A program made the position numbers and the translations under genes. A DNA stretch of 64,000 nucleotides from positions 2,104,001-2,168,000 of the forward strand of contig AP031359.1 in assembly GCA_037833965.1 (NCBI GenBank), read 5' to 3'. The notes beneath the pieces are model-generated. The model saw only the letters and a program-made list of their open reading frames with translations, ran no database searches and was not told the DNA's origin. Below are positions 985 through 45,640 of the stretch, piece by piece (the first letter of the stretch is position 1; every line of letters begins with the position of its first letter). Source of the DNA: Marchantia polymorpha subsp. ruderalis. Taxonomy: Eukaryota; Streptophyta; Marchantiopsida; Marchantiales; Marchantiaceae.

Positions 985-1766
985 AGCTTGTTCTATTGCC
1001 TACAAAATTGGAGCTCACCGCACCACTTACCTATTGGAGCTTACCGCACCGTGAAGAATACGATAGTGTTTTCAATGGTATGCTCAATGGAGACTAAAGG
1101 TTACCGTGGACTAACAGCTCTGAGATGGTTTTTTGAGAACCGGGATTTTCTTTGTTTGAACTGTCAACTGGGAACGGATTCATTTCCTTGAGTATATCCT
1201 ATCTTGAGATATTACTCTTCTCCTGTTTAAGACTGTCTCGTGAGCTTGCTCTATTGCCTACTAAATTGGAGCTCACCTCACCGCTAAGCTATTGGAGCTC
1301 ACCGCAACGTGAAGAATACAAGAGTGCTTTTAATGGTATGCTCAATGGAGACTAAAGGTTACCATGGACCGATAGCTCTGAGATGGTTTTTTTTAGGACC
1401 AGGATTTAGTAAATCTTGAGAAATTGCCCTTTTGCTATTTAAGATTGTGCCGTGAGCTTGCTTGATTGCCTACTAAATTGGAGCTCACCGCAGTGTGAAG
1501 AATACGAGAGTGCATTTAATGGTATGCTCAACGGAAACTAAAGGTTTCTGTAAACCAAAAGCTCTGAGATGGTTTTTTGAGCATTGGGATCTTGTATGTT
1601 TGAACCCTCAACTAGGCACGGATTCATTTTCTCCAGCATATCCCATCTTGAGAAATTACTCTTCTGTTGTTTCAGACTGTCCCGTTAGCTTGCTCTATTG
1701 CCTACTAAATTGGAGCTCACCGCACCGCTAAGCTATTGGAGCTCACCGCAGCGTGAAGAATACAAG
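985..1766 (-). repeat. R1: ~255-bp satellite array, about 3.3 units
   Basis: Units begin near 985, 1243, 1455 and 1687, each with the block agcttgctctattgcc followed by the ctcaccgca motif. Spacings are 258, 212 and 232 bp. The same monomer, reverse-complemented, forms R2 (37241-38080). The array is bounded by element ends on both sides (984 and 1767). The break at 1766/1767 lies at the monomer position gcact-CTYGT-attc, the same position broken in R2 by E8. Confidence 0.85.
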
Positions 1767-2037
1767 TGTGATAGCCCACCCAAGGCTGAATTGCAGTATA
1801 ACAGCAAAGGATCAAATCCACAGGGACACGAACAACACATAGAGTACAAAGTGTCATGTTTTAACAATCTATTGAGGAGTTTGAATTCTCACGCTATTGT
1901 CACTCCCATAAATACTGCAAATATTCTACTCGGAAGTCACTCGGAGGACACACAATGCAGCGTAGTACACCCCAACACACACCTGAAACTATAAATGCAC
2001 AACTCAGAGGTCGATCAAGACCTCCACTTAAGATTCA

Positions 2038-2053
2038 GGGGGGGGGGGGGGGG
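2038..2053. repeat. G16 homopolymer
   Basis: Sixteen consecutive G residues lie in the right-terminal region of E3. Related copies carry only a short G/C run followed by aagtttccc, so this is a local homopolymer expansion. The exact length is prone to sequencing error. Confidence 0.8.
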
Positions 2054-2802
2054 AAGTTTCCCAAGAGTACACTCAGTGGATCTGCAGGTAGTGATCCAAC
2101 TCCAAATCTGTAACCTTAACACTAGCCACTGCTAATGCAGAGCATTCAAGTTAGACTTCTGCTATAAAATGCGGTAACTTCGACAAGCTATAGGTCCTCT
2201 TGCGTGGTGACAGAACGAAGGACACAAACACGCAGAGAAAATGATACTTGAATTGAACTTCCGAAAGTAGAAAATCCCCCAAGGCCAACGCCTTGGACTA
2301 CTTTATACACTCTAAAATCCTAACTACCTAACACTCTACCTCATTGACTATGCCTCATATGAGTCGGCCGACGATCCACTAATTTCCTACCCGTCCACTT
2401 GTGGTACCCCACTTTTGGTATTTTTGCGGAATTTAAAACATTTTTGGAAAACTGTACCACGGCAGTAGTGTAAATAGCCATCGGTGCACCAAAATAGAGT
2501 GAAACTGGATGATCTCGGAGAATCTCGTAGAATCCAGGAGTTGGGTGCAACGTCTGGGACAGACGCCGCCCTAAACGACGGGCTCTGAAGGAGTACCCCT
2601 TCGGCGCAAGGCGCATAACCCGCCTTCGGCACTACGCCATCGGCGCTAGAGGAATCCCTTAGAATCTAAGCAATTCCCAAACGCCTTGACTTGGTTAGGG
2701 TTTCGTTGAAAAGAGCCTGACGCGCTGGTTCTAACGAGCCCAAGAACGCCCGGAACGGATCAGGATTCAGGGAGTTGTGACGGTCGAAAGATACGAAGAC
2801 CT

Positions 2803-2926
2803 TCGCCTACGCATAGGCGAGGGACGTTCGCCTACGCATAGGCGAAATAGGGTTTGACGTCGGCGGGGAGTCCGCCGAGAATGCCGCCTACGCATAGGCG
2901 GGGAGGACTTGCACCTACGCATAGGC
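2803..2926. repeat. Cluster of CGCCTACGCATAGGCG palindromes
   Basis: Four copies of a 14-16 bp near-palindrome (CCTACGCATAGG core) lie within about 125 bp at 2803, 2827, 2885 and 2912. Further copies occur at 4774-4900 in the same element. E13 carries the perfect form with a CGCG centre. The core differs from the perfect palindrome by one transition at a CpG. Confidence 0.85.
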
Positions 2927-3719
2927 TCTTCGGCGTCGGCGGAAAGTCCGCCTTCGGCCTTAGGAATCCGCCTTCGGGGTTGGAACTTGTACGGCGCCTT
3001 CGGCGCCAGCGCATCACGGTTGGGTGAGGACCCAACGGAGTAGCAAAATCCGTACAGACTGTACGGACGGAACGGACGAGTGCGCCTTTGGCCGGTCGGG
3101 GTTCCGGAGACAAGAGCGCCGACGGAGAGGCGAGAGAGATGGGCAGACTGGACGGAGTCCGTTGACCGCGGTCAACACCTTCGGCACAGCCGCCTTCGGC
3201 GCTGCGCCTACGGCGAGGAACCTACGCGGACGAACGTCCTATGTGCGGACGGAATCCACCTACACATAGGCGAGCGCCTACGCACAGGCGGATGAAGTTC
3301 GACGCCGGCGGAAACTCCGCCGGGGATTCCGCCTACGTAGAAGGGAGTTCAACTTTTGTCTTATGCGCGGACGAACGCCTTCGGCGGAGCGGGACTAGCC
3401 AAGTTGAAGTACGGATGAGTGTAGCGCGTCGGCGAGAAATCTGCCTTCGGCACTAACCATGACCTCCTGCGAGCGGACAGAGGACGCCACATTCTTGAAT
3501 TTGCGATTTCAATTTCTAGTGCGAGCTGCGCGCGTCCACCTTCTAGCTGAGAGACGTTCTAGACATCACCGCGCGGAGAGTTACTTGGTGGCTGGGAGAG
3601 AATTGAGTGTGTGCCATTTGGAATTGAGAGAGATTAGTGTTTGCAGAGGAAACAGAATCGCGAGCAAGAGGCTCGGGCATAGGAGAGAGAGAGTTGCGCA
3701 AATCAATTTCAAGAACGCG

Positions 3720-6421
3720 ATGTCGACATCGGTGAGGCTGCGGATGGTGCCACTCAAGCTCCTGCAGAATGGGTTGCGTGCTTTTGAGGATCGGCTGATT
3801 GCAAGGAAACTCGAATTCTTGCTGTGGGTATGGAATTACGTGTGCGCAGACATGGTGCGCGAATGGCTGGACGAGGAACGACAACCTACGTGCGGATTAC
3901 GTCCGCATGTAGATAGATGGACTGTCCGCGATTGGGGACAGGCATTGGGGAGGTGCGCAGGTGAGGACGGGTACCTCCTGTTCGACAGTGAAAGCGTCAA
4001 GGTAACGAAGGCGGACGAAGCCTCCTTCGTGGAATTGTTCAAGCGGGAGAGGTCTTCCAAGAACGGGTACAGGACCCGCGACTACAAAGATCGTTTCCAG
4101 AGGACCGTAGCGATGGCGCTGCTGCAATTGTTGCAGCCGCACCGCACTACGTACATCACGTTGTGGTAGGTGTCCTTCGTGGAGCTCACGTTGGCTGGAG
4201 CTCCAGTTCATTGGTCGCGTATCATGCATAGGGTGATGCGACAGCATGCGTTTGAAGAGCGGGGAGGAACTTTCAATCACCTCTCCCCCTTCTTGATAAA
4301 TTTTTATCGGTCGATGAACTGTTTAACCGCGGCCGAGCGTGCTCGATTTCCGCCATTGTCAGTTGACCATCCCGGGAGGTATGTGCGGGATAACGAGGTG
4401 GACACCGACGCGGAGGATTCACCGACTTCCACTCCACCGGGTCAACAGGATGCGGGGAGAGACGCATATGCAGCGCGAGTACCGCGGAAGCGAAGATGGA
4501 GAGAGGAACCAGAGAAAGAGCAACATCAAGAATCAGCTGCTCTCACCCGGAAGCGGCCACTGCACGAGGTCTACAGCCGGCCAAAGCAGAAGGCGCGCAG
4601 GCTTTTGTTACCGGCCAGCAGCGCGGAAACGGCGACGATCGCCACAGAGAAGGGAAGTCCGTCCCCGGAGAAGGATGGGACTACGCGGACGGCCGAAGGG
4701 GCAGTAGACCATCCTACGCCTTCGGCGGAGGAGAGACGACCTTCGGGTCAGGAGTTACCACGTGCGGCGCGGATGAGTGTGCCGCCTACGCATAGGCGAC
4801 TCCCTGTGGATAGGCGACCTCTTGCGGACGTGGATTTGTGCCTACGCATAGGCAGAGAAAGTTCGCCTACGCATAGGCGGGTGCCTACGCATAGGCGGGA
4901 CTCACCCCCAGTGCAACGCAGGAAGGGGAAGGAGCCGGCGGAAGATCCGCCTTTGGCTCAAGGGCCTTCGGGACAAGGCCCTCAGGCGGAAAGATCGCCG
5001 GGATATGCGCCTTCGGCGCTAGGGCCTTCGAGCCAGCGAGTTACAACCAGAGAGCCGGCGGAAGCCGCGCCTTCGGCGGAATATCCGCCGGAAGATGCGC
5101 CTTCGGCGGAAGGGCCTTCGGGCCAAGGGACATCGGGCGGGCCGCCTTTGGCACTACGCCCTCGGCGGATGAAGCGCCGGGATTTGCGCCTACGCGTAGG
5201 TCGGACGCATCCCTGGCGCAGGGTCTAAGGGTGGAGCAGGACCGATCGGTGGAGCGGATTGATTGTCCGCAGGGTGAAATTCGTGCACGCGATGCACAAT
5301 TACACCCCGCGCAGGTACATTCCGCACGATCGCCTTCCGCGGTAGACGCCGGCGGTGAAGGAGTTACAGTCGCGGCACGACAGGCGGACGATGGGGATGT
5401 GGCACGGCCGCATTCATCCACCGCCTTGGACATTTTAGCAGGGAGTAGCGAGGCTGCTGGAGCGCCAGCGGCGGAAGAGCACGCAAATATCTCGCAGTCC
5501 CACCCAGGCCAGTCATTCTCGCTGACGCATTCAATGGCGACCGAAATCCTCAATTCGGAGGATGACGAAGAAGGAGGATCCACGGAATCAGTGTCGGGAT
5601 CGGGATCCACCGAGGAGGAGGAGGAGAAATTGATAGGTGCGCCGGCGGCGGCCCTTTGTGAGCAGGTAGTACCTCTGCTGAGCTACTTGGATCGCAAGAT
5701 GGAGAAGTACGCGGACCCTCGCCAGCCTGGGTCCTACGTCGAGTTAGTGCGCAGGCGAACTCGCACTAAAGTCCACACCAGCAAGTTGCTAGCCCGTGTG
5801 GACCAGGAACTTAAGGCTCTGCGGGAGAAGCATGAATGCTTGTGGGGTCAGTACACCCTCAATAAGAAGGTGTACAAACACTTCGACAAGGTAAAGGATG
5901 AGAGGCTGGAAGAAATCGCCAAGGAGAAGGTGAAGCTCACAGAGGCGCTGGATTCTGAGCAAGCTCAGAATCGAATTTTGTCAGAGGAGCTCGTGCGACA
6001 GACGCGGTTGTTAGAGCAGTGTCAGCTCGCACGGCAGGCGGATCAGGAATTAATCCGCAAACTGCAATCCGAGTGCGGAGAATTGAGAGCGCAGCGTGCG
6101 GAGGCCGAATTGCAGTTGGTTGTGGTTGAAGACGATAGCCGACGGGAGGCAGATCGCATGAAGGAAGAGATGGCGAGGCGAGTCACCCACTGTCTCAGGG
6201 GCTACGCCCACTGGGAAGTGGCGGCACAGGAGAAACTCACAGTGCGTGAGTTAGAGCTTCGTGCAGTTGGGTTGTTGACAGGTGATAGTCGAAGTCGGCG
6301 GCGAGTGGCGAAGAAGCTGGATTCTTTTCTGTCGAAGTCGCAGGACACCATGGCCACCCTTGAGACGGAGGTTTCCGCGGTGTTGCGGCGTTTGGGACTG
6401 CGAAGTCGAGCTGAAGACTGA
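3720..6421 (+). pseudogene. Broken gene-like region of E4 (Trp-rich domain + coiled coil)
   Basis: The region starts at an ATG shared with other copies (MS-T-x-LRM-PLK) and ends at the conserved C-terminal RRLGLRSRAED. Visible order: a Trp-rich N-terminal domain with LLW-W-YVC-DMV and VxDWGQALGRC; a NGYRTRDYKDR segment followed by LLQLLQPHRTTY; HLSPFLINFYRSM; a basic PRKRRW block; a palindrome-coded Pro/Ser/Ala linker; an acidic SEDDEE stretch; ALCEQVVPLLxYLDRK; and a long coiled coil. I know of no firm match. The layout, a compact N-terminal domain plus linker plus coiled coil, recalls ORFs of plant gypsy-type elements annotated 'putative gypsy type transposon'; that is an analogy only. It is treated as a fossil with about three breaks. 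Confidence 0.6.
4774..4900. repeat. Second CCTACGCATAGG palindrome cluster, within the coding linker
   Basis: Several copies of the palindrome occupy the stretch that codes the Pro/Ser/Ala linker in sister copies. The same motif fills the non-coding 5' region of this element (2803-2926), so it has spread into both coding and non-coding parts. Confidence 0.8.
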
Positions 6422-6553
6422 CAGGGTAGGGAGTTAGTGCGCGGCAGTCCGTCGCGTTGGAGGCGAAGCACAGGTTCTGCGGAGTGTAGTGTAGCGTGGT
6501 TCCGTGCAAGCGCGTAGCATAGTGCAGTGTAGTGTTAGTTAGGACTTAGAAGG

Positions 6554-6583
6554 TATAAAGTAGTTCAAGGCGTCTTGCCTTGG
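6554..6583 (+). promoter_or_regulatory. Conserved TATAAAG plus hairpin after the gene-like region
   Basis: TATAAAG (6554-6560) is followed by a CAAGGC-GTCTT-GCCTTG hairpin (about 6567-6583). The same TATAAAG recurs 3' of the gene-like region in E6 (12915), E7 (18582), E5 (20253), E9 (43583) and E11 (49431), and in the reversed copies. The hairpin is kept in most of them. Its place about 1 kb before the right end suits an LTR-like promoter reading toward that end. Promoter function is inferred only from the motif and its conservation. Confidence 0.45.
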
Positions 6584-9262
6584 GATTTTTCCAGTTTCGG
6601 AAGTGCAGATCAAGAACTCATTATCTCTGCGTGTTTGTGTCCTTAGTTCTGTCACCACGCAAGAGGAGCTACACCATGGCGATCCGCATTGTGTAGCTCA
6701 AGGCCTTCGGCCGAATGCTCAGAGCTAGTACATTGGTTAGAGACTTGAGTAATTTGGATCTACACCTGCGGGTGATTGCCGATGCTTAGAGCCAGTGACG
6801 AGTTAGATACTTGAACAGTTTCCCTCTTACCCTTTCATGTGAATGTTTCTGATTGTACTCCTTCGGGATTTTTCCCCTGAATGCCAAAGTGAAGTTTTGC
6901 TACTTCGTGTAAGCCTTGGTTGTAAATTCAGGTTACGCTGCAGCAGGTGCCTTCAGGGTAACCCCTGTAGTATTTCTGGGAATGACAAGTGCCTGAGAAT
7001 TCAAACTCTTCAATAGACTGTTATGGTGTGTTACTGGAACGTTTCTTAGTGAGTCCTTCCGTGCGGACCAGTGTTCTCTGCGCGTTTTGTGAGTTGAGCG
7101 TGTTGTTCACCGCGTGTGAGTGACTCCGAGTGAGTCCAACCCGGGTTCCCTACGCTAGCAAAAAGCTAGTGGAAGGGTTGTAAAAGCCGGAGTTGGGAGT
7201 CACTACCCGCAGCTTCGCTGAGTGCTCGCGGGAGACTTTCCCCCTGAAATCTTACGTAGAGGTCCTAACCGATCTCTGGATTGTGTTTCTGTAGTTTCAG
7301 GTGTGTGTGTGTGTGTGTGTTGAGTGAACTACGCTGCACTATGCGACCTCCGAGTGCACACTTGCACTATTTCTGGGAGTGAGAGTCGCCTGAGAATTCA
7401 AACTCCTCAATAGTCTGTTAAATGTGACACTTTGTACCCTGTGTGTTCCTCTGTCCCTGTGGGTTCGACCTTTCTACCACTATATTGCAGTTTTAGCCTT
7501 TAGTGGGTTATTACACTACTCTCCTACGCAGTTCAAGCCGCCGCAACACTTTGGTAACCTCGGTCTCAAGGTTCGCAATGGCGTCCCGCGACCTGGACAT
7601 GAATGACTCCAACCGCTTTGCCACCCGCCACCTACTTTATCCGTCGCTAGCCATCAAAGCTGTCGCGTCGCCATTATCTCAAGTTCACGCAACGTCATCT
7701 TCTCCCGTGCCGCGATCTCCAAGTGAGCATAACCTCTCAGACAACGGTCAACCTGCGAAACTAACTCCTCCGGCGTGCGATTTGTCGCGCGCCGGTTGTG
7801 GCCTTCAACCTCTGCCAACTGTAACTCCGCCGCCGCGTCCTCAAGTGGTCGCACTGCGACTGCAGTCGACCCAGTAACTCCTCGTGTGCTCTCCTCGCGG
7901 CCTCGCTTTGCTCTAACGCCCGTGTCTATCACACAAGCTCATCCGCCATAATGCGGTTTTGAGCCTGCTCGGCACTGATTTCTGTATGGACCTTTGCACG
8001 CAGCTCATCAATTTTGCGCCGCGCATTGATCACCATCTCATCTCGCAGCTGAATCGCCGTCTTCTGCAGTTTCCGCGATAAGGCACACTGATCCTGTAGG
8101 AAATTGTAGCCCTCCTCCAACTGCCGATACTTCTGGTCTAGGACCATCAATTCGGGATTCGTCGCCACCTTGATCCGAGTCCGAATTCGGACCAGCTCCA
8201 CATAGGATTGTAGAAACCCACTTTTTGTTTTTGGTCGGAATGAAAACATTTTTGGAAAATAAGTACTGCGGCAGCAGATGTAAATAGTAATCGATACGTA
8301 AAATGGAGTAAAAAGGGACAATCGCGGGTCGCGGAGAATCTAGGAGTTGGGGGGGCTTAGGCCGAGGTTGAGCGCCTTTGACAGAGCAGACGGTTCCTGC
8401 AGAGGGGAGCGCCTTCGACGCCTTTGGCAAAAAGGTCTTTTTGTGAGGTGTCTACAGCTGAAGGGCATTTGGCGCAAGCAAAAGGAAGCGCCTTTGGCTC
8501 AAACGCCTGCAGAGGAGCTTTTGCTGAAGACGTATGAAGCACGCGACACGGAGCGCCTTTGTGAGAGGAAAAACGACCTCGTCACTTTGTACGCCTTCGT
8601 CGTTAGGTTTCGCCTTTGGCGGAAGGAATGCCTTCGCCTCTAGGATGCGCCTTTGGCAAAAGGACTCGTCTTTGGCGAAAGGAGAAAGGACAAAGGAGAC
8701 AGCGGAAGTCCGTACTTTTGCTGCCAACGCCTTCGGCGGTACGCAAACGGAGAACGGCGTCGGCGGAAATCACCAAGATCAAGATTGAATGTACAAGTGT
8801 GGGAGTCTGCCCAACAGCAGAGCGTGCATTTGCGCATGCGAATTGGGCTATGTGGTAACCCACTTTTTGTTTTTGTGCGGAATTTAAAACAATTTTGGAA
8901 AACAGTACCGCAGCAGCCGTGTAAATGGTGATCGGTACATTTAAATAAAGTGAAGATGGATAATCGCGGGTCTCGTGTGATCTCGTAGTATCTAGAAGTT
9001 GGGCGCAATGTCCGGAACAGGCGCCCCGACCTGAACGATCAATTCTGAAGGAGTTCTCCTTCGGCGCAAGGCGCATAATTCGCCTTCGGCGATACGCCTT
9101 CGGCGCTAGGGAAATTTCTCAGAGCTTATTCAATTCACAACGCCTCGGCTTGTTTAGGGTTTCGTTGAAAAGAGCTCAACACGCTCCTTCTAACGGACCT
9201 AAGAATACCGGGAACGGATGAGGACTCAGGGAGTAATGACTGTCAGAAGATACAAAGACGTA

Positions 9263-11620
9263 CGCCTTTGGCGGTAAGTCCGCCGGAAAATCCGCCTTCG
9301 GCAAAAGGAGTACGCCTTCGGCCCTAGAAGTTTGCCTTCGGGGGTGAAGTCTTCGTACGGCGCCTTCGGCGCCAGCGCATCAAGATTAGGTAAATGACTT
9401 CAGAGGTAGCAACTCCGTACGGTCCGCCTTCGGCTCAACGTCTTCGGCGGGACGGACCTGTGCGCCTTCGGCGTGACAGAGCTCCGGTGGCGAGAGCACC
9501 TTTGGAAGGACAAGAGGGATCGACAAACAAGACAAGATCCGTTGACCACGGTCAACGCCTTTGGCACAGCCGCCTTCGGCGCTGCGCCTTCGGCGATGCA
9601 CCTACGCCGAAGGCGGACATCTTTAGGAAGTTCGCCTTCGGCGCTAGGAGTCAACGCCTTCAGCGTTACGGGATGGATACAAGTAGCGAGTCGGCCAAGG
9701 GCGAAAGCCTTCGCCGCCGCGCCTTTGGCGCTGCGCGACCATGGCCGCGGCGAAGTACAATGGCGGAACTCAAATTGAAATTTCAAGCGTGTGAGTGCGC
9801 GTGACGGCGGAGCGTGAAGCCGCACGTGCGAGAGGAGGGCCGTTACGCCTCCAAGCCGGCGCAGCCATCAAGTGAGTCGACACTCACGACCAAGTGTCGA
9901 CAATGACATCCTGCGAGCCAAGGGCGGACACTTCATTCTTGAATTTGCGATTTCAATTTCTTGTGCGAGCTGCGCACGTCCACCTTGTGGCCGAGAGAAA
10001 TTTGAGACACCGACGTGCAGATACTCGCAAGGTGACAGAGAGAGAATTGAGTGCGCGACAGTCGGAATTGAGAGAAATTAGAGTTTGCAGGAGAATCGCA
10101 GTCGCGGGCAAGAAGCCTTAGTATAGCGGAGGAGAGTTTACGAAATCCAAATTCAAGAACGCGATGTCGAAGCCCACTCAACTGCGGATGATTCCGCTGA
10201 AGATTCCGCAGATTGGGTTGCGCGCTTTCCAGGACCTGCTGTTTGCGGTGAAGCTTGATTTCCTCCTGTGGGGATGGAATTACGTGTGCCAAGACATGGT
10301 GCGCGAATGGCAAAGGGAGAGACACCAACCTACGCGCGGATTCCGACCGCACGTAGAGCGTTGGACTGTCCAAGATTGGGGGCAAGTGCTGGGAAGATGT
10401 GAAGGCGAGGACGGGTTCCTCATATTTGATAGTCAGAGCATCAAGGTGACGAAGGACAAAGAGATCTCCTTTGCGGCCTTGTTCAAGAGTGAAAAGTCCA
10501 GCAAGAACGGGTACAGGACCCGTGACTACAAGGATCGCTACCACAAAAATGTAGCAGTGGCACTTCTGCAACTCTTGCAGCCGCACCGAACAACATACAT
10601 CACTTCTTGGCAAGTGTCTTTCGTGGAGCTGGCGTTGGCCGGAGCTCCAATCACTGGTCGCGTATCTTGCATAAGATAACGCGGCAGCATGCATTTGAGG
10701 AGAGGGGGGGGATCGATCAATCATCTCTCCCCCTTCTTGATAAACTTTTATCGGTCGATGGGTTGCTTAACCGCGACCGAACGTGTTCAATATCCGCTGC
10801 CGTCACTCAGCAATCCCGGGAGGTATGTGAGGGATAACGAGGTCGACTCCGACGCGGAAGAAACTCCGGCCTCCACGCCACCAGCCCAACAGGGTGCGGG
10901 GAGGAAAACATTCGCAGCACGAGTGCCGCGGAAGCGGAGATGGAAGAAAGAACCAGAGAAGGCTCCACATCGAGACTTGACGGCTCTCAAACGGAAGCGG
11001 CTACTGGAGGAGATTTGTAGTCGGCCGAAGCAGAAAGCACGCAGGCTTGTATTGCCTGCAAGTAGCACAGAGACAATGCGTGCCGCCGGAGAGAAGGAGA
11101 CGCCATCCTCGGAGGAGCATGGGAATGTGCGGACGGCAGAGGGGTCAGCGGACCTCCCTACGCCGAAGGCACGGACGCCTTTGGTGGAAGCTAGACGACC
11201 TTCGGGTCAGGAGAGAAGACACGCGGCACCGATGAGTGTGCCGGCAGCGGATAAGAGAGCTCTTCGAGCACCGTACGCGGACTTGCCTTCGAGGCTGGGG
11301 CCTTTGGCTTGTGCGCCTTCGGCGCAGTCGCCTCCGGTGCAGCGAAGGAAGGGGAAGGAGGCGGCGGAAGATCCGCCTTCGGCTCAAGGGCCTTTGGGCA
11401 AGGTCCCTCGGCGGTGAGACCGCCGGAAAATGCGCCTTCGGGCCAAAGAGTTGCAAGTAGGGAGCCGGCGGGGAACGCGCCCTTGGCGGGAAGTCCGCCG
11501 GAAGGTGCGCCTTCGGCGGAAGGGCCTTCGGGCCAAGGGACATCAGGCGAGCCGCCTTCGGCAGAAGCGCCGCCGACAAATGCGCCTTCGGCGGAGGCAC
11601 CTCTAGCGCAGGACCTAACG
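9263..11620. repeat. Representative field of GCCTTCGGC palindromes in E6
   Basis: The 11-mer CGCCTTCGGCG (stem CGCC/GGCG, loop TTC) and close variants recur dozens of times in the 5' region and in the linker of the gene-like region. In the coding frame it reads PSA; the other two frames read AFG and LRR; the reverse strand reads PKA, AEG and RRR. None of the six readings contains a stop, which explains the many overlapping open frames on both strands. The same field occurs in E2-E5, E8-E11, E13, E15 and E16. Confidence 0.85.
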
Positions 11621-12848
11621 GAGGAGCGGGATGACAGTCGGAAGGAGGAAACACGTGTGCGCGATGCACAATTGCAATCCGCGCAGACACCTTCCGCACG
11701 AACGCCTTCGGCGGTGGATGCCTTCGGCGATGCGGAGTCAGCAGAAGCCGGACGGGCGGGCCATACGAATTTGGCACAACCCAACTCTCCCACCGCCTTG
11801 GACATTCTGGGCGAGAGCAGCGAGGCTGCAGCTTGTGGCAGACGACGCAGACACTACGAAGCCACACTCACGACAGTCACCGGAGAATTCAGAGGCGACC
11901 GAAATCCTCAGTTCGGAGGATGACGAAGGAGGATCAACGGAATCGGGATCGGGATCAAGTGAGGAGGAGAAACAATCAGTGGCAGGTAGGCCAACGGCGG
12001 CGCTCTGCGAGCAAGTGATACTTCTGTTGAGGTACCTTGATCGCAAAGTAGAGAAGTATGGAGACCCCCACCAGCTTGGGTCCTACGTCGAATTAATGCG
12101 TAGGCGGACTCGCACTAAAGTCCACACCAGCAAGTTGTTGGCCCGTCTGGATGGGGATCTTAAAGATCTGTGGGAGAAGTATGAGTGTCTGTGGGGCCAC
12201 CTTAATCTCACTCAGAAGATGCACAAGGCCCTCGACAAGTCGAAGGACGAGAAGCTTGAAGAGGCGGCAAAGCAGTTCGCCAAGGAGAAGGCGAAGCTCG
12301 TAGAGGAGCTAGATTCTGAGCAGGCTTAGAATCGAATTTTGTCAGAGGAGCTCGTGTGACAGACACGGTTGTTAGAGTAGTGTCAGCTCGCACGTCAGGC
12401 GGATGAAGAATTAATCCGCAAACTGCAATCCGAGTGCGGGGAATTGAGAGCGCAGCGTGCGGAGACCGAATTGCAGTTGGTTGTAGTTGAAGACGATCGC
12501 CGGCGGGAGGCAAATCGCACGAAAGAGGAGTTGGCGAGGCGAGTCAACCACTGCCTCAGAGGCTACATCCACTGGGAAGTGGCGGCGCAGGAGAAACTCA
12601 CACTGCGCGAGTTAGAGCTTCGTGCGGCGGGTTTGGTATCAGGTGACAGTCGGAGCCGGCGGCGAGTGGCGAAGAAGTTAGATTCGTTTTTGTCGAAGTC
12701 GCGGGACGCTATGGCCACCCTCAGGACAGAGGTTTCTGCGGAGTTGCGGCGGCTTGGACTGCGCAGTCGACCTGAAGACTGGCAGGGTAGGGAGTTAGTG
12801 CGCGGCAGTCCTTCGCGCAGGAGGCAAAGCACGGGTTCCGCGGAGTGA
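10164..12848 (+). pseudogene. Gene-like region of E6 (Trp-rich domain, linker, coiled coil)
   Basis: This is the clearest copy of the family protein, about 895 codons including breaks. It begins MSKPTQLRMIPLK. Trp-rich motifs FLLWGWNYVCQDMV and WTVQDWGQVLGRC follow, then NGYRTRDYKDR, LLQLLQPHRTTY and HLSPFLINFYRSMG. A basic PRKRRW-SRPKQKARR segment, which may bind nucleic acid or direct nuclear entry, leads to a palindrome-coded linker. An acidic stretch, ALCEQVILLLRYLDRK, a ~250-residue coiled coil and an Arg/Ser-rich tail (RSRPEDWQGREL) close it. No zinc knuckle, protease, RT or integrase motif is seen. The function is unknown; a gag-like or accessory role is inference. It is a fossil with about four to five breaks. 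Confidence 0.6.
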
Positions 12849-33744: not shown

Positions 33745-34236
33745 GCTCGTGAATGCCAAAGCGGCGATAGTTGTCCGCATTCCATGGGGGTGATTTGATT
33801 GAGAGTAGCACTCTTCGGTCGGTCTGGTCCGTTAGTGCACTCTAGCTGGTGCGCTACAAGGGTTTGCTTGTGAATGCCTAAGAGATGGTAGTCGCCTGCG
33901 TTTTGCGGCGAGTTTTTGGGATTTGAATGAGAGAATCTCCCTTCGGCCAGTCTGGTCTGTTCGTGCACTTTAGCTGGTGCGCTTGAGGACCTTGCTCGTT
34001 AATCCCCAAAGAGGCGGTAGTCGTCTGGTTCCGCAGTGAGGTTTGGGAATTTAATTGAGAGAAGCTCCCTTTGGCCGGTCTGATCTCTTTGTCCACTCCA
34101 GCTGATGCGCTTGAGGGGTTTGCTCGTGAATGCCAAAGTGACGGTAGTCGTCTGCATTCTGCGGCGAGGTTTGAGGACTTTAATGAGACTAGCTCACTTT
34201 GGCCGGTCTGGTTTGTTCGTGCGCTCCAGCTGGTGC
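33745..34236 (+). repeat. Four-unit ~125-bp minisatellite joined to S5
   Basis: Units start at 33745, 33866, 33994 and 34122 with gctYgtgaatgcc (121, 128 and 128 bp, then a last unit of about 115 bp). Each contains cggtagtcgtctg-like, gcggcgaggttt-like, ggccggtctggt and ccagctggtgcgct. The array runs directly into the ggaggcatacc start of S5, taking the place that the KRI1 exon holds beside S1 and S3. Confidence 0.85.
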
Positions 34237-34731: not shown

Positions 34732-37240
34732 CAGAGTAAATGCTTAGGCCGAAAGCACGAATTTATGTGTCTCTCACTTATTAACAAGATGTTAAGAATT
34801 GTACCAATTTCGGTCTGATTAGATGAAAATTAGAGTGGGTGCGAATTAGAATATATATTGAAATAAAATTTGCACAAAACCTAGATGATTTCTTAACTAA
34901 CTTGAGTTGAATGATACATATTAATTTAATGTTCATGCTTTGATTTCTAGTTTGTCCTACTCAGGCTGTGATATTTGAGAGTTCCATGGTATCAAACCAA
35001 AATAAATGGCCGAGATTTTCAATTAAGTCAGTAATATTGTAAGATTTTTCCCTCCGATTCCCGATTCCCTAAAACGGCTATGAACAACAACTTTTTCTAT
35101 CCATCTGTGAAATTCACACTTATTAACAATGTAATATAATAACCATCATGATTGTAGTAATCTTGAGAATCTAAGTATGAGGCCTGATTGCGATATGCTT
35201 CCACTGACGGCTTGTAATCATTCGTTGTCCTTCTGAAAAAAAATCATATCTAGATACTCACATGACTATTCTAGCACCGTTGTCTTCTTATTTTAATCTA
35301 CAAATCCATTCTGCTACAAAGTCACTCATGACTGTTAGTACAGGGATCGAATATCTGCACCACTCTTCCCAACAATAGCGCAAACTACATTTGTAACTGA
35401 CTGAGATTTGAAGTGACTTAAACGGTGTTCCGAAACACATTGTTTACTAGATTTGCAATAGTATTAGCTAGTTTTTCGCTGAATACCTGTGTGGTTAATT
35501 AGCTGAGTGTTAGTGTTGGAAAGTACTGCAAGTAGCCAAACTGACGTTCTCTGCCTAGATGTAAGATCCCCATGCAAATTGAACGCAAGTCGAAAGGGCA
35601 GCTTGCAGTTTATTTCAGAGTATATTCGGTCCCCCTTAACAACTGTCGGCAGTGAGCACTTCAAACTACAGACTTGGAACAAATTACCGTTAAAGCCAGG
35701 ACTAAAGGAAGAAACTAAACGGGAGAAACAAACTTCGTGATAAACATGAACACATCGTTAATGATGGAAATCACCTTTCGTTTCGGCTTGTTCGATCAGA
35801 TCACATAATGCCCAATATTTGGAACCTGATCTATGCAATCAGTCAGAAACTGCAAGACATTAGATTTCCAGAATCATATATGGAGTATCTACTGCTTTTA
35901 TATCAAGTCGTATGTGTGTTCATAATAATCTATGTATAAAATTGTTCATTTATTTATTTATACGAATCAGCGTTTGGCGACTGCGACGAGATGAAAAACC
36001 AACATTAAGGCGAAGGTAATCCAGAGTGTGCATGCCCAAAACTATCAGAAAGGATGCAGAAATAGCCGACGTGTTCAACTCGTCAAAGAAAACTCTACTT
36101 GCAGATGAAAGCACAGAAGAGAATGCCGAACTCAAGCTCGATAACACTTGAATGCTCGAGAGACGAACATCTCACTCTGCTCGTCTCTTCAGGCCGAGAA
36201 TTTCTACAAAGATTTGAACCTTGCGTTGCATCATGTTGTACAAGTTAATCATTTTGAAGAGTGGCTCGAGTAAGGCGCCGAGGAGTTTAAGGAAAAACTC
36301 GATGGCAAAACTTGTCGCTAGTCCATGCCAGCCAAAAACTTGTCGTTAAGCTGCCACATCTGATCCGCAAATTTTCCAGTTCCAGGACCGAAACAGAATT
36401 GCAGAAAAACTTCCTGAGTGAGCAATTTGCAAATCACGCTTTAATCCGGTATTGGCCTCTCTCGAACTCTGAACTGCGACTCCTCTACAAAATCAATCTG
36501 TCTTTAAAATTCCAAAATCCCTTTGACAATCAAAGAGTCTCCATGAATGCAATTGCTTTCTGCTTGCCCTTGAATGATTAGCTTCTTGGTATATCTCCAC
36601 TTGGATACTTTATTAGTGAAAATGGGACCTGTGCCAACTTTGCCTGAAGGCTTCTCGCCTTTACAATAAGTGTGGTTTTCTTGGTGATTCAGGAAATGAA
36701 GGACGATCCTTTCGTAACAAGCATCTCACTGTACACCTCCGCACTTGAAATAGTATATGAGGGCATTTCGCTGCCCCTTGTGAAGCTCATGACCAGAAAT
36801 TTGTCCCAACCTCTCAGCTGCACCAACCAGAGGGACTGCGTGGGGTCCGGGTGGAAAATAGATTTCAAGCATTGCTGGCCTAAGAACTGACTTCAACCGC
36901 AAGCAAACTTGCTCAAATTTTGAGACAATAGATGCCGCTACTATAACAATGAAGCCATTACGAACTCACATTCATACAGTAGGGTCGTAAAGCAACGGGC
37001 ATTCATAGTGATTTACTAAACTAGGATATCCTATCTTGAGTGCCTCATATTCTTCTTTCAGGCACTGGCTTCCAGGTGTACTCGGCTATCTTGTGGTAAA
37101 TAAAACTCAAGTCTTCCTCTGTCTTAATGCTACATGCATGTTCAAAATGACGGTTCTTATACTCCCAGATACCTTCTTCAAGTCTTGCAATGCATGAGAA
37201 GTTTCCACTTTAGCTATCACTATCGCGCTAACGTCCACAA
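34732..37240. other. Host-island sequence, no gene assigned
   Basis: AT-rich, low-copy DNA. Around 36000-36600 both strands show short stretches with protein-like composition, for example a minus-strand 65-codon frame at 35950-36147 with a hydrophobic SASFLIVLGMHTL stretch, and a plus-strand AENFYKDLNLALHHV segment after an acceptor-like ctcttcag. None could be chained into a gene or named. They may be decayed exons. Confidence 0.4.
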
Positions 37241-38080
37241 ACCATCTAAGAGTTGTCGGTCCACGTAACCTTTAGTCTACATTGAGCATACCGTTAAAAG
37301 CACTCTCAAATTCTTCACGGTGCGGTGAGCTCCAATAGCTTAGCGGTGCAGTGAGCTTCAATTTAGTAGGCAATAATGCAAGCTCACGGTACAGTCTTAA
37401 ACAGCAGAAGAGTAATTTCTCAAGATGGGATATGCTAGAGGAAATGAATCCGGCCCAGTTGATGTTTCAAACATATTGAATCCCAATCCTCGAAAAACCA
37501 TCTGAGTTGTTAGTCCACGGTAACCTTTAGTCTCCGTTCAGCATACCATTAAAAGCAATTTCGTATTCTTCACGCTGCGGTGAGCTCCAATAGCTTAGCG
37601 GTGCGGTGAGCTCCAATTTAGTAGGCAATGGAGCAAGCTAACGGGACAATCTTAAACACCAGAAGCGTAATTTCTCAAGATGGGATATGCTGGAGGAAAT
37701 GAATCCGTGCCCAGTTGATGGTTCAAACATACTGAATTCCAATCCTGAAAAAACCATCTCAAAGCTGTTGGTCCACGGTAACCTTTAGTCTCCATTGAGC
37801 ATACCATTAAAAGCACTCTCGTATTCTTCACGCTGCGGTGAGCTCCAATAGCTTAGCGGTGCAGTGAGTTCTAATTTAGTAGGCAATAGAGCAAGCTAAC
37901 GGGACAGTCTTAAACAGCAAAAGTGTAATTTCTCAAGATGGGATATGCTGGAGGAAATGAATCCGTGCCCAGTTGACGTTTCAAACATTCTAAATCCCAA
38001 TCCTAAAAAAACCATCTCAGAGATGTTGGTCCACGGTAACCTTTAGTCTCCATTGAGCATACCATTAAAAGCACTCTCGT
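37241..38080 (+). repeat. R2: ~256-bp satellite array, about 3.3 units
   Basis: Units start at 37241, 37498, 37753 and 38011 with accatct (257, 255 and 258 bp, then a partial unit of 70 bp). They share gtaacctttagtctc, gagcataccattaaaagcact and gagctccaatttagtaggcaat. It is the same monomer as R1 in opposite orientation. The last unit stops at gcactCTCGT, where E8 begins. Confidence 0.9.
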
Positions 38081-40251
38081 TGTGGTAGCGCAGTTTTTGT
38101 TTTTGTTTCTCGGAATTAAAACATTTTTGAATAGTAAGTACCGCGGTAGTAGCAGTAGATAATAATCGGTACGCAAAAAGAAAGTAAAAAGGGAATCTTG
38201 GGGTCTAGGGGAATCAAAGGCAGTCTAGGGATTTGGGTCACAGTCGGGTGTCTTGGGCGGAACGGGCGGTTCAAGCTACAGGGCCCGCTTCAAGCGCCTT
38301 CGGCGGTAAGGTCTTTGGCGGAGGAGTCTTCGGCCGTTGCGCCTTCGGCGCAAGTAGAAGGAAGTTCCTTTGGCTCAAGCTCCTCGGCAAAGACTCTACC
38401 GCGGAAGACGTACGAAGCATTAAGGAAGCATTACGAAACTCCTTCTTTGGTGGAAGTGACCTCGTTGCTAGACTTCGCCTTCGGCTGTAGACTCCTTCGG
38501 TGCAAGCACCTTCGGCATTAGCGCCTTTGTCGGTAGCGCCGCCTTTGTCGTTAGGGTTTGCCTTCGGCAGAAGGCTGTGCCTCTGTCTCTAGGATGCTCC
38601 TTCGGTTCAAGCATGCGCCTTCGGCGGAACGAGAGAAGAAAAAAAAAACGGCTGAAGTGAGTGCCTTCGTCGCTAGCACCTTTGGCGGTACGCGGACGGA
38701 GAGCTACGCCGGTAGAATTCCGCGGGATTATGTCCAATGTACAAGTGTGGAAGTCCGCGCAACGGCGGAGCGTGAATTCGGGCGTGCGAATCAGACCGTT
38801 ACGCCTCATCGCCGGCACAGCATTCAAGCGGGTCGCTGCCAAGACCAAAGGTCAAATTTGAAAGTTCTTGATGTGCAGAGGGAGAAGCTCTTACGCATTT
38901 CCGATTTCGCACTCACTCGAACTCGCGACGTGCAGTAGCAGCAGGAGCACGCAGAGATTGTAAAGAATTCGATGGCCAAGTCTATTCCGTTGCGGATGGT
39001 GCCACTACGAGTGTAGCAAGTCGGATTGCGGGCATTTGAAGACGAGCTGACAGCGGTGAAGCTCAATTTCATTTTGTGGGGATGGAATTGGGTGTGCGCG
39101 GCGATGGTCTGGGAGTGGATGCGTGAGAAGGACTAGCCTCCGCAAGGTTATCGACCGCACCCGGAGAGATGGCAAGTGAGTGATTGGGAGCAGGTCTTAG
39201 GAAGATGTGCGAGAGAGGAATGTGACCTCCTGTTTGAGTGGGAGAGTGTGCATCTCTCAAAGGAAGAAAGATTTCCTGCGGCGCCCTTTTCAAGAATTGC
39301 AAGTCGAGCAAGAACGGGTACATGATCTGTGACTATGTTGATCGCAAGCGGAGGAATGTCGCTGTAGCACTCCTCCAGATTTTGCAGCCGCACAAGACTA
39401 CCTACATGACATCTTGGTAGGTAGGATTTGTGGAGTTGGCGTTGGGGGTACTCATATTCATTGGGCTCGCATTTTGTGGAGGGCCACGTGGCAGCATGCA
39501 AGAGAGGAGAAGGGAGGGTCGATCAATCACCTGTTCCCTTTCTTGATAAAATTTTATTGGTCGATGGGGTGTCTGACTGCAGAGGAGAAGATACAATTTC
39601 CCTCGCTATCGCGGGCGAATTCGGGAAGGCTTGTGAGGGATGTCGAGGTTGATATAGACCCCAACGAAGTGCCCGCCATCACACCACCAGCCCGACTGAG
39701 AGCGGAGGAAGAACCGAGGGGAGCGCGAGCATCCTGGAAGCGAAAATGGGATGGAGATGCAGGACTGAGTCGGTGAGAATTGCTCGCTGTCCCAGTCAGG
39801 CATCGGGCGAACAACGAGCAAGCCCGATCAAAGCAGAAGGCTCTCAAGCTGATTTTGCCAGCGGACAGCAGCGCGGACACGGGCCGAGCTGCAATTGCGA
39901 GGAACTCACCTTCCTCCGAGGAGGATGTGAGTGTATAGGTTATTGGGAGGTCGACAGACTTCCCTACGCCGAAGGCACGAGTGCCTTTGGAGGAAGCACT
40001 TAGGCCTTCGGGCCACAAAGGAAGGCGTGCGGCAACGGCCAAAACGCATACGCAGGAAAGATGCTTGCTTTTCGAGCAAGTACCGTTTGATGACTCGCCT
40101 TCGGAGCTAGGGCCTTCGGCTCAAGGACCTTCGGCCCAAGCGCCTTCGGCTTAGGCGCCTTTGACGCAGAAGCAGTTCAGGGAGATGCCTTTGGCAGAGA
40201 CGTCTTCGGCGCTGAAACCTCTAGAGCACATTCCTACGGGCGAAGGCAAGA

Positions 40252-43200
40252 TGTGATAACCTAGTTTTTGTTTTTGTCGGAATTAAAACATTTTTGAAAA
40301 ATAAGTATCGCGGTAGTTGCTGTAAATAGTAATCGGTACGCGAAAACAGAGTAAAAAAGGAGAATCGCGGGTCTAGGAGAATCTAGGAGTTCGGGGGCTT
40401 AGGTCGCAATCAGGCACCTTGGACGGAACGGACGGTTCATGCTGAGGGAAGCGCCTTTGGCAAAAGCTTCCTTGTTGAGGCTTCTTCGGATGAAGCGCCT
40501 TCGGCGCAAGCAAAAGCAAGCGCCTTTGGCTCTGATCCGTGCAGAGGAGCTTTCGCTGAAGACGTACAAAGCATGTGACACGGATGGCCGCGTCAAGGGA
40601 AAACGACCTCGTCACTAGACAAACACCTTCGGTGGTACACCTTCGGCGATAGATTCCTTCGCCCCAGCGCTGTCTTCGTCGTTAGGGTTCACCTTCGGCG
40701 GAAGGCAATGCCTTTGCCTCTAGGATGCTCCTTTGGTGAAAGGATGCGCCTTCGGCGGAAGAAGAAAGGACAAAGAAAACGGTGGAAGCCTGTACCTTCG
40801 CCGCGAGTGCCTTCGGAGGTACGCAGACGGAGAACGGCATCAGCGAAAATCGGCGGGATCAAGATTGAATGTACAAGTGTGAAAGTCCGCGCAACGGCAG
40901 AGCGTGAATTCGCGCGTGTGAATCGGACCATTACGCATCCCCACCGGCATAGCATTCAAGCGGGCCGCTTCTAGCCCAATTGTCGAACGATTAGAAATCT
41001 TGATCACCGAAGGAAGAGACTTACTCTCGCATTTTCAATTTTGCACTCGCTTGAGTTCGCGACGCGCAGCAGGAGAATTCGCAAAGAGCTTGCGGAGAGT
41101 TTGTCAAGAGTGCGTTGCGCAGAGAGTTGCAGAGAAGGTTTGTAGAGAGTGCGTAGCAGCAGGATCAGGAGCTCGCAAAGATTTTCACAAATTCAATGGC
41201 CAAGTCGATTCAGCTACGGATGGTCCCACTGCGAGTGCCGTAGGTCGGATTGCGAGCGTTTCAAGATGAGCTGATGGAAGTGAGGCTCAATTTTCTTCTG
41301 TGGGGATGGAATTGGGTGTGCCCGGCGATGATCTGGGAGTGGCTGCGAGAGAGGAACTAGACTCCGCGAGGTTATCAACCGCACCTGATGAGATGGCAAG
41401 TGAGCGATTGGGAGCAGGTCTTGGGAAGATGCACGGGAGAGGAAGGCGACCTCCTATTCGAGTGTGAGAGTGTGCAGGTCACGAAGGAAGAAGAAATTTC
41501 CTTCGGTGCATTTTTCAAGATTTGCAAGTCGAGCAAGAACAGGTACAAGACCCGTGACTACAAAGACCGCAAGAATGTCGCGGTAGCACTCCTCCAGATT
41601 TTATAGCCGCACACGACCACCTACATGACATCTTGGCAGGTGGGATTCGTGGAGCTGGCGTTGGCAGGAACTCCGATTCATTGGGCTCGGATTTTGTGCA
41701 AGGCCACGCAACAACACGCGCAAGAGGAGAAGGGGAGGTCGATCAATCACCTCTTCCCCTTCTTGAGCAATTTTTATCGGTCGATGGAGTGTCTGATAGC
41801 AACGGAGCGGGTACAACTTCCCTTGCTGTCGCGAGCAAATCCGGGCAGGTATGTAAAGGATGTCGAGGTTGACACCGACCCCGACGAAGCGCCCGCTAGC
41901 ACACCACCAGCTCGACCGAGAGCGGATGACGAACCGAGAGGAGCGCGAGCACCCCGGAAGCGCAAGTGGGATGGAGAGGCAGACCGGAGCCAGCGGGAAG
42001 TGCCCACTGCTCCAGTCAGGCGTCGTGCAAACAACAAGCCCGCAAGCCGACCGAAGCAGAAGGCACGCAAGCTAGTTCTGCCAGCAGATAGCAGCGCGGA
42101 CAGAGGGCGAGCCGCGGTTACGAAAGACTCACCATCCTCGGAGGAGGATGTGAGTGCAGAAGTTCTTGGGAGGTGAGGTGACCTCCCTACACCGAAGGCA
42201 CGAGTGCCTTTGGAGGAAGCACGTAGGCCTTCAGGCCACAGAGGACAGCATGCGGCAACGGCCAACATGCCTGCGATGGAGAGGTGCTTGCCTTCCGAGC
42301 AAGTACCATTTGATGACTCGCCTTTGGGTCAAGAGCCTTCGGCGCAGGAGCGGTGTAGGAAGGAGCCTTCGGCTCAAGAGCCTTTGGCTCAACGGACTTT
42401 GGGTCAAGCGCCTTCGGCGTGGACGTCCCTGGAGCAAGTTGCGGCGGACGAAGGCATAGAGGGGGAGACACGTGTGCCTTCAGTGGTAGCAGTCCAGGCA
42501 AGTGCAGCAGGCCCATCGGGAGCAAGTTCTCCCACCCCTTTGGAAGTATTAGCGGGACATGGTGCGGAGGCCGCGGCAAAAGAAGCTGCGCGACCCACCT
42601 CGAGAGAATTGCCGAGGAATTCTGCGGCGACAGAGATCCTCGGGACCAAAGACGACACGCCTTCGGAGGAGGAGGAAGTGGAGTCCGTGTGAGGTACACC
42701 GACCGGGGTGCTCTGCGAACAAGTGGTACCACTACTCTGATACCTTGATCGCAAGGCGACCAAGTATGCGGATCCCCGCCATCGAGGATCCTACGTTGAG
42801 TTGGTCAGGAATCGGACTCGGATCAACGTAGCGACAAATCCCGAGTTGGAGGCCTTGGACCCGAAGTATCGGCAGTTGGAGGAGCAATACGATTTCCTGC
42901 AGGAACGGTTTACCGTTTCGCGGAAATTGCAAAAGCAAGCGCTTTAGCTGCGAGATGATGTAGCGGCCAATGCCTAGCGCAAAATTGAAGATCTGGGTGC
43001 GAGGATCGAGACGGAGCTCAATTCCGAGTGAGCTCAAAACGGTATTCAGGCAGAGGAGCTCGTGCGGCAAACGCGGGCATTGAAGAAGAGTGAGACGGCA
43101 CAGAAGACAGATGAGTAATTACAGGGTCGACTGCAATCGCAGTGCGACGAATTGAGAGCGCAGCGTGCGGAGCCGGAGTTACAGTTGGCGGAGTTGAAGG

Positions 43201-44448
43201 CCACAACCGGCGCGTGAAAAATCGCACGCAGGAGGAGTTACTGTCGTGAGTTGACCGGTGTCTTAGAGGTTTTACTCGCTAGAAGATTGCGGCGCAGGAG
43301 AGAATGACCTTGCGCAAAATGGAGATACGTGCGGCAGCTTTGATGTCTGGTGACAGTCAGAGTCGGCGGCGCGTGGCGAAGCGGTTGGAGTCATTTCTTT
43401 TGAGGTCGCGGTCACCATTGCGAACCTTGAGGAAGAGATGACCGCGGTGTTGCAGCGCCTCGGACTGCGTAGGAGAGTAGACGAGTGGACGGCTAGGGAG
43501 TGAGTGAGTAGTCGGACTTCGCATAGGAGGCATAGTCGATGAAGCGTAGAGTAAAGTGTTAGGTAATTAGGATCTTAGAGTGTATAAAGTAGTTCAAGGC
43601 GTTGGCCTTGGGGGATTTTCCAGTTTCGGAGAGGAGCTATAGCTTGTCGAAGTTACCGCATTTTGTAGCTGAAGGCCTTTGTCCGAATGTTCTGAGCTAG
43701 CGTAGTCTAGTCAAGATCTTCAAGTTTGGACTTACACCTTCAGACGATTTTTTCCTGTTTCTATTCCTTTAGGATTTTCCCCCCTTAATACCAAAGTGAA
43801 GTTTTGTTAACTTCAGAGTAAGCCTTGGTTGAATTCAGGTTGTGTGTGTTACGCTGCTTGAGGCGCCTTGAGGGCGGCCTCTGCAATATTTCTGGAAATG
43901 ACTAGTGCCTAAAAATTCAAACTCGTCAATAGAGTGTTAAGTTGTGACACTGGATCTTTCTCAGTTCAGATTTTTGTAGTCTCTGCGCGTTTTGTGAGTT
44001 GAGTGTGTTGTTCACTGCATGAGAGTGACTTCGGTTTGACAAAGGTACTGCATCCGAAGTAGGAAGTCCAACCCAAATGCTCTGCACTAGCAGTGGCTAG
44101 TGTTAGGGTTACAAATTCGGAGTTGGGTCACTACCTGCAGATCCTCTAAGTGTACTCTTGAGAAACTTTCCCCCTGAACCTTAAGTAGAGGTCCTAACCG
44201 ACCTCTGAGTTGTGCTTTTACAGTTTCATGTGTGTGTTGGGGTGAACTACGCTGCACTGTGCGTCCTCCAAGTGACCTCCGAGTTGAGCACTTACAGTAT
44301 TTTTGGGAGTGACAGTAGCTTGAGAATTCAAACTCCTCAATAGTCTGATAAAACGTGACACTTAGTACTCTATGTGTTGCCTTTGTCCTTGTGGGTTCGA
44401 CCCTTTGCTGTTATACTGCAATTTTAGCCTTTAATGGGTTATCACAAA
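40252..44448 (+). mobile_element. E9: 4.2-kb family element inside E8
   Basis: It starts TGTGATAACCTAG and ends ATGGGTTATCACA, length 4197 bp. Parts are a 5' region (40252-41195), a gene-like region (41196-43540) and a 3' region with TATAAAG at 43583. Flanks CAAGA and AAGGA do not give a clean target duplication. It is a fossil and one of the more decayed copies, with perhaps eight or more breaks. Confidence 0.7.
41196..43540 (+). pseudogene. Gene-like region of E9
   Basis: It has the same order as E6: MAKSIQLRMVPL start, Trp-rich domain with FLLWGWNWVCP, VSDWEQVLGRC, TRDYKDR, HLFPFLSNFYRSM, a basic APRKRKWDG block, SRPKQKARKLVLPA, the linker and the coiled coil. E8 and E10 share its variant wording (PRAD-DEPRGARAPRKRKW in E8-like copies). 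It is a fossil with many breaks. Confidence 0.5.
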
Positions 44449-45640
44449 GGAATGCGCAGACACGTGTGCCTTCGGCAAAAGCACCTTTGGCGGGACCAGA
44501 TTGGGAAAATGTAGTAGGTCCGCCTGGAGGAGGTTCTCCCACTCCATTGGAAGTACTAGCAGAGCATGGAGTTGAGGCCGTAGCAGAGGAAGCTGCGAGG
44601 CCCAGTGCGAGAGAATCGCCAAGGATTTCTGCGGCGACAGAAATGCTGGAGACAGAAGACGACACGCCTTTGGAGGAGGAGGAAGTGCACTCGATGCGAG
44701 GTACACCGACCAAAGTGCTCTGCGAGCAAGTGGTACTGCTACTCCTGTACCTTGATCGCAAGGCGATCAAGCACGGGAATCCCCGCCAGTGTGGATCTTT
44801 GTAATAACCCACCAAAGGCTAAAACTGCAGTATAGCAGCAAAAGGTCGAACTCACAGGGACAGATGCAACACACAGAGTACAAAGTGTCACGTTTTAACA
44901 GACTATTGAGGACTTTGAATTATCAGGCTATTGTCACTCCCAAAAATACTGCAAGTGCTTAGCTCGAAGGTCACTTGGAGGACGCACAGTGCATCATAGT
45001 TCATCCCAACACACACCTGAAACTGGAAAAGCACAACTGAGAGGTCGGTTAGGACCTCTACTTAAGGTTTAGGGGGAAAGTTTCCCAAGAGTACACTGAG
45101 AGGATCTGCAGATAGTGACCCCAACTCCGAATTTACAACTCTGACTGCTAGTGCAGAGCATCCAGGTTGGACTTCCTACTTCGGATGCGGTACTTGATCT
45201 ATATAAGATAAGATATAAAATATATATAAGATAAGATATGTATAAGATCCTAACTAGACTACGCTAGCTCAGAACATTCGGGCGAAGGCCTTCAGCTACA
45301 AAATGCGATAACTTCGACAAGTTGTAGCTCCTCTTGCGCGGTGACTGAACGAAAGACACAAACGCGCAGAGAAAACGAGGTCCTGAATTAAACTTCTGAA
45401 ACTGGAAAATCTCCCAAGGCCAACGCCCTGAACTACTTTATACACTCTACAATCCTAGCTACCTTACACTCTACTCTACGCTTCATCTGCTATGCCTCCG
45501 ATGCAAAGGCCGACTACGCACCAACTCCCTACCCGTCCAATCGTCTGCTCTCCTACGCAGTCCGAGCCGCCGCAATACCTCGGTCACCTCTGCCTCAAGT
45601 TTTGCAATAGCGTCCCGCGACCTCGAAAGGAAAGACTCCA

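Follow-up and report, generated by a model that had tools for sequence, protein, structure and literature searches.

The question raised by this locus is whether an island carrying a SIN3 gene was inverted within a repeat-rich chromosome, and by which route. The window, the whole stretch of DNA analysed, is 64,000 nucleotides long (C1:2104001-2168000), and the genome searched comprises nine contigs with 241,466,482 bases. Contig C1 has 5,591,195 bases, and seven further listed contigs have 24-33 Mb each. Genome searches with parts of the element E5 (described below) gave triple matches on C1 near 2.2, 2.6 and 3.0 Mb. The single genome match found for GAGA_bind is on C1, and the BPC (GAGA_bind) gene is presumably sex-linked in Marchantia. 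The Marchantia polymorpha Tak-2 assembly, HiFi-based according to the accessible part of its description, has a U chromosome of 5.6 Mb with a triplicated middle (PMC13078153). Taken together, the triple matches, the GAGA_bind match and the published triplicated U suggest that C1 is the M. polymorpha U chromosome (female sex chromosome), or one close to it.

The starting point is a satellite array, R, and an LTR-like element, E, both of which are found in two parts in the window:

985-1766, minus strand: R1, one part of the split array of the 258-bp satellite; target duplication next to E3 at 1762-1766 (ACAAG)
1767-2399, minus strand: terminal part of E3, the 3' end of the split putative LTR E; aligns with E9 positions 4195-3812 and 3379-3230
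7516-8208, minus strand: inner part of E3 (E9 positions 3229-2537); target duplication next to E5 at 8204-8208 (AGGAT)
37239-38080, plus strand: R2, the opposite part of the array; target duplication next to E8 at 38076-38080 (CTCGT)
38081-40251, plus strand: E8, 5' half of the split putative LTR E
44447-44799, plus strand: last part of E8, to E9 position 2539; target duplication next to E10 at 44795-44799 (ATCTT)

Re-reading of the sequence placed all of the bases named in the initial annotation (CTCGT, ACAAG, ATCTT, ATCCT) where it had put them. R2 ends in GCACT-CTCGT at 38080 and E8 starts at the next base; the reverse complement of R1 reads CTTGT-ATTCTTCACG directly after the E3 end (1767), with ATTC following CTTGT. 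As had been claimed, E8 and E3 flank a single satellite position, the same base of the 258-bp monomer, marked by CTCGT on one side and CTTGT on the other. At their inner edges, ATCTT (44795-44799) adjoins E10 and AGGAT (complement ATCCT, 8204-8208) adjoins E5. Aligned to the nested copy E9 (40252-44446), E8 corresponds to positions 1-2539 and E3 to positions 2537-4195. The two are complementary, overlap by a few bases, as expected from a 5-bp duplication, and are broken at the same internal element coordinate (E9 2537-2539), again as annotated. The observation that E8 and E3 are the left and right halves of one element holds.

Each of the two claimed duplication pairs (CTCGT/CTTGT and ATCTT/ATCCT) has one mismatch. 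Comparison of 10 x 10 element ends gave six pairs with at most one mismatch versus 1.6 expected by chance, namely the two claimed pairs, two ordinary ones (E4, E11) and two spurious ones. The letters by themselves are thus weak evidence, and the claim takes its weight from two exact registers, one base of the 258-bp monomer and one base of the ~4.2-kb element. Other nested insertions sit elsewhere, E4 near E9 position 3230, E6 near 680, E7 between 1851 and 1996, and E11 near 3138, and E9 itself is inserted in E8 near 2200, so that these five placed insertions give no sign of a hot spot.

The genome matches of the left part of E8 and the right part of E3 coincide in 15 of 35 places within 6 kb, 11 of these 15 at a distance of 2.3-2.9 kb, which is the spacing expected inside one element. 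The E8-left list has 5, 2 and 1 places in common with the three E5 lists, and the E3-right list 0, 0 and 1; as a positive control, the E5 parts share 6 of 39, 6 of 39 and 12 of 38 places among themselves. The lists (35 places for E8-left, 39 for E3-right, and 39, 38 and 37 for the E5 parts) were each taken from the best 40 candidates, with window rows, satellite rows and secondary pieces left out. Since the E8 and E3 lists overlap and have few places in common with the E5 lists, E8 and E3 belong to one subfamily, distinct from that of E5. Matches of R among the best 40 candidates were limited to R1, R2 and three places on C5. These C5 places, at 24.88, 24.97 and 25.07 Mb, have identical scores and hold pieces in both orientations.

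The break in E is occupied on each side by a member of one family, E5 and E10, in opposite orientation at the two ends of the probable inversion:

8209-20556, plus strand: E5, read as the 5' LTR of an element inserted in E; interrupted by E6 and E7 and cut off at E9 position 3575
44800-52878, minus strand: E10, read as the 3' LTR of an element inserted in E; holds E11, ends at ACGTA against another element
14484-14495, no strand: junction of a ~595-bp deletion in E5
51930-51941, no strand: junction of a ~595-bp deletion in E10

E5 aligns with E9 from position 7 to 3575. In BLAST against E9, E10 aligns with 4195-3794 and, after a 50-bp AT-rich filler, with 3469 to 423, and comparison with E5 extends it to about E9 position 330. 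Without gapped sites, identity between E5 and E10 is 94.3, 92.6 and 93.9% in three blocks, which together give 6.6% divergence over 1706 sites, and 88.1% in a fourth (320 sites; 11.9% divergence). Among the copies compared, and leaving gaps out of the count, the two are each other's nearest copies, as had been claimed: they reach 93.4% over blocks B2-B4, the best others 90-92%. Genome-wide BLAST with gaps was less clear, and E10 was not always on top: in one E5 block it had 93% and two others 92%, in another it had 85% and C7:483314 88%, and in the first it had 84% and C3:20904900 86%. In that first-block search E10's own 84% stretch was absent among the best rows, so copies can be missed.

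Both E5 and E10 are without ~595 bases between E9 positions 1106 and 1704, and the junction is identical. A 201-base query across this junction was spanned fully only by E5 and E10, with 39 of 41 rows matching one side or less (best 40 of 173), and where one of the copies compared matches both deletion flanks, the two matches are separate. A deletion of its own has removed the junction from the E5 copy upstream (see below), which is therefore not a test of it. No crossover point between E5 and E10 was seen when their blocks were set against 29 copies by shared-site counts, a weak test because E5 and E10 are mutually nearest in the compared blocks. Searches for the missing parts, 620 bp of E5 and the 5' 330 bp of E10, located neither among the best 40 candidates for each, and a position-based search did not find the downstream remainder of E10 (best 40 of 1575). 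With the far ends of E5 and E10 missing, one pair of exchanged target duplications is visible (ATCYT). The tail of E10 recurs at 57023-57101, before the same end of the other element; 52800-53029 and 57023-57252 are 97.8% identical over 230 bases that include the E10 tail and the end of the other element.

On the island side, E5 leads directly to a probable breakpoint and a palindrome:

20556-20557, no strand: left breakpoint of the probable inversion, where E5 meets the island; GGAGTAAG occurs twice at the join, which is also present upstream
20578-22723, no strand: palindrome adjoining the left breakpoint, arms 20578-21551 and 21879-22723; 127-bp repeats

E5 follows its family to 20556 and is succeeded by island sequence, with the copies of GGAGTAAG 13 bases apart; a short repeat at a join is frequent in end joining. 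The palindrome starts 21 bases past the E5/island join, and its arms (~1 kb) are 97.7% identical over 818 bp and 95.1% identical over the outer 288. The right breakpoint and the uninverted order were not seen in this genome.

Window positions 12331-45960 have a direct duplicate (~34 kb) at C1:1996632-2052062, ~104 kb upstream, which holds the E5/island, E9/E8 and E8/E10 joins. The E3/E5 join and the R joins occur in one locus only, and neither genome matches (best 40 candidates) nor comparison of the loci found R2 and the left part of E8 in the upstream duplicate. The duplicates differ at 373 of 11,319 sites (3.3%) in nine LTR stretches, and at 238 of 6,664 sites (3.6%) without E7. Because the E8/E10 and E5/island joins are present in both loci, the inversion would be older than the duplication, and a local assembly error is unlikely for these two joins, found as they are in two diverged loci. 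The divergence of 6.6% between E5 and E10, compared to 3.3% for the duplication, fits this order of events.

The elements of the E type that interrupt E and the E5/E10 pair are the following:

2400-7515, plus strand: E4, later putative LTR in E3; target duplication CCACT/CTACT, one mismatch
8851-13884, plus strand: E6, putative LTR in E5; flanks GGCTA/GGTTG, two mismatches
14649-19331, plus strand: E7, putative LTR in E5, with ACAAG on its left; deletion of the 3' end shows TGCAG microhomology
40252-44446, plus strand: E9, later putative LTR in E8; flanks CAAGA/AAGGA, two mismatches; right side CAGGA in the upstream copy
45641-50451, plus strand: E11, putative LTR in E10; target duplication CTCCA/CTCCA, exact

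The E elements have TG...CA ends and 5-bp target duplications, exact in E11 and in the upstream E7. One copy on C5 (L054) ends in GGGTTATTACA, with the primer-binding site TGGCGCCGCTGCCGGGGA, which we take to be the tRNA-Asp site of Ty3/gypsy elements, 22 bases downstream; a copy on C1 (L025) also ends in GGGTTATTACA and has the primer-binding site 21 bases downstream with one mismatch. By these features the E elements look like very long LTRs, mostly 4-5 kb. A scan that allowed up to 4 mismatches detected no primer-binding site in the window or in 69 kb upstream of it; of the 38 loci L001-L038 a single one had such a site, which implies that most copies seen are not full-length. E4, E6, E9, E11 and the upstream E7, which are flanked by duplications, are read as solo LTRs. 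On C5 the next LTR copy follows after 11 kb; no polypurine tract is evident ahead of this copy, whose end lies outside the stretch read. Pfam gave nothing above cut-off for the E reading frames or for the pol-like region 57201-60525 (three pieces); below cut-off the latter gave Asp_protease_2 (E 0.059) and an implausible Glyco_transf_5, and protease and integrase motifs were recognised in it by eye. The LTR-like elements, for example 45641-50451, contain reading frames of no assigned kind and many CGCCTTCGGCG-like repeats.

E7 lies at different positions in the two copies of the same E5 (14649-19331 versus C1:2002296-2007124). In both it resembles a true insertion, with flanks AGTCT/AGTCT upstream and the left flank ACAAG in the window. 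The two E7s resemble each other (97%) more than any other long match (93-95%), with 96 and 97% for two partial matches, and this combination of different sites and closest kinship is odd for an LTR element.

The two registers, the complementary halves and the common subfamily make it very probable that an inversion of some kind took place. Of the initial interpretation, the inversion of the island survives as the simplest account of two split insertions, with two of the joins present in two loci; its proposed mechanism, a crossover between E5/E10-like copies, appears unneeded and is disfavoured by the ~595-bp deletion that no other scored copy shares, the LTR-like nature of the elements and the lack of visible chimaerism (by a weak test). 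The reading that we prefer, at roughly even chances, takes E5 and E10 as the LTR pair of a single retrotransposon, pulled apart by an inversion with one break inside E5. The two LTRs of a single insertion are identical at birth, so that a single full-length element would explain the pair without a second insertion. E5 has its 5' end at one target edge and E10 its 3' end at the other, as an LTR pair requires.

According to this LTR-pair reading, E, an LTR without partner, would first have sat in the satellite array R beside the SIN3 island. Another LTR retrotransposon, from the broad family to which E belongs, would then have entered E, producing the 5-bp duplication ATCYT on each side, with E5 as its 5' LTR and E10 as its 3' LTR. 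The left break would have fallen inside E5 (E9 position ~3575; window 20556/20557), and the other between the palindrome-side edge of the island and its former neighbour. Flipping of the island-R2-E8-E10 piece, probably by end joining, would have put 36 kb between the halves of E, between those of R and between the two LTRs, each pair now in opposite orientation, and further insertions and the direct ~34-kb duplication would have followed.

The same joins could have arisen by NAHR, if two separate inverted copies, one in E and one beyond the island, recombined and E5 and E10 are the hybrids. E5 and E10 are indeed inverted close relatives, E10 is collinear almost from end to end, as expected of a crossover product, and the pattern of exchanged duplications is that of the Galileo inversions, as far as described in the part of PMC2775673 consulted. 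NAHR needs, however, two independent insertions with a ~595-bp deletion seen in no other copy among the best 40 of 173, and the shared deletion speaks against two insertions; no chimaeric signal was seen between blocks (weak test), and the second exchanged pair cannot be shown, both far ends being lost. We consider this route unlikely. A staggered-break inversion, in which staggered cuts at two points of one LTR were filled in, leaving its middle duplicated in inverted orientation at both ends, would account for the overlap of E5 (1-3575) and E10 (330-4195), their truncation at opposite ends and their common deletion, and the mechanism is frequent in Drosophila subobscura according to the part of PMC5080602 seen. 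It would need a stagger of ~3.2 kb, however, and the truncation of E10 is also explained by the element entering at ACGTA, which makes staggered breaks an improbable source of the pair as well.

That no inversion took place, the pattern being due to independent insertions that match by chance or to an inverted duplication with losses, is still less probable: the 5-bp matches alone are near chance and the chromosome is rich in duplications, but the two registers are exact, the halves overlap only by the target duplication and share a subfamily, and no second halves of E8 or E3 were seen in the window. A chance match of the duplications was accordingly rejected, because the letters in the 10 x 10 end matrix are insufficient and the registers carry the claim; an inverted duplication with losses was judged less likely, since E8 and E3 complement each other instead of covering the same stretch of the element. 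Transposition with 'reversed ends', a cut-and-paste model, yields the same junctions and was dropped because two E-type copies were found to precede a primer-binding site. A hybrid-insertion model is among those discussed for Galileo in the accessible portion of PMC2775673. Misassembly is very improbable; the region is repeat-rich and duplicated and the E3/E5 and R joins were seen once, but two joins occur in two diverged loci and the matching published assembly is described as HiFi-based in the part of PMC13078153 available. Among the routes to an inversion the choice stays graded, because the far ends of E5 and E10 are missing and NAHR, staggered breaks and a two-break inversion give the same joins.

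The growth of non-recombining regions is often ascribed to inversions, and breakpoints on old UV chromosomes are hard to recover. The event described here is old, small, probably real and of a known type; it would be readable base by base and dated against two nested insertions and a later duplication, suggesting that nested LTRs let such inversions be recovered from a single genome. The closest parallels, each in the part of the source available, are the Galileo inversions of Drosophila buzzatii, with copies in opposite orientation at both ends and exchanged target duplications (PMC2775673), and the staggered-break inversions of Drosophila subobscura, with an inverted duplicated stretch at both ends (PMC5080602). 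In the Galileo case (PMC2775673) both copies are chimaeric and uninverted chromosomes are at hand, whereas here one exchanged pair is visible, no chimaerism was seen, and E5 and E10 look like LTRs of one insertion. In contrast to D. subobscura (PMC5080602), the repeated stretch is here an apparent LTR, which may be double for another reason, and the event is known from the inverted order alone. Liverwort U and V chromosomes are likewise repeat-rich and rearranged, the M. polymorpha U being given as 5.6 Mb with a triplicated middle, and the parts consulted of the two reports describe no single base-resolution inversion on that U (PMC13078153, PMC13182070). Literature searches (without supplements) found no report of an inversion of the SIN3 island.

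The segment that was probably inverted carries one well-supported gene:

28318-32469, minus strand: SIN3, 1383-codon open frame inside the inverted segment; Pfam domains three PAH, Sin3_corepress and Sin3a_C

A second open SIN3 copy lies in the upstream duplicate, with 9 differences in 4152 bases, and a third match is on C4. Between the duplicates, 25,991-33,990 has ~27 differing sites (~0.3%), in coding and non-coding sequence alike (dS 0.4%), compared to 3.3% in the LTRs and 1.8 and 2.3% in two further parts of the island; the repeat-rich 34.0-34.8 kb differs far more. The likely cause of this near-identity of the SIN3 core is gene conversion; the rival explanation is a lower mutation rate of unmethylated DNA. 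We tentatively propose, as a possibility rather than an expectation, that the inverted SIN3 segment belongs to a non-recombining haploid sex chromosome, was later duplicated directly, and had its 8-kb core kept near-identical by gene conversion while its surroundings differ by 2-4%. If true, the SIN3 segment would be the U-linked counterpart of the self-repairing repeats on animal Y chromosomes.

Positions 24348-24788 of the island are assumed to be KRI1, a label that comes from the initial annotation; Pfam and PDB gave no support for this identity. Together with 25495-25794, this stretch forms a partly duplicated reading frame that looks like a fragment.
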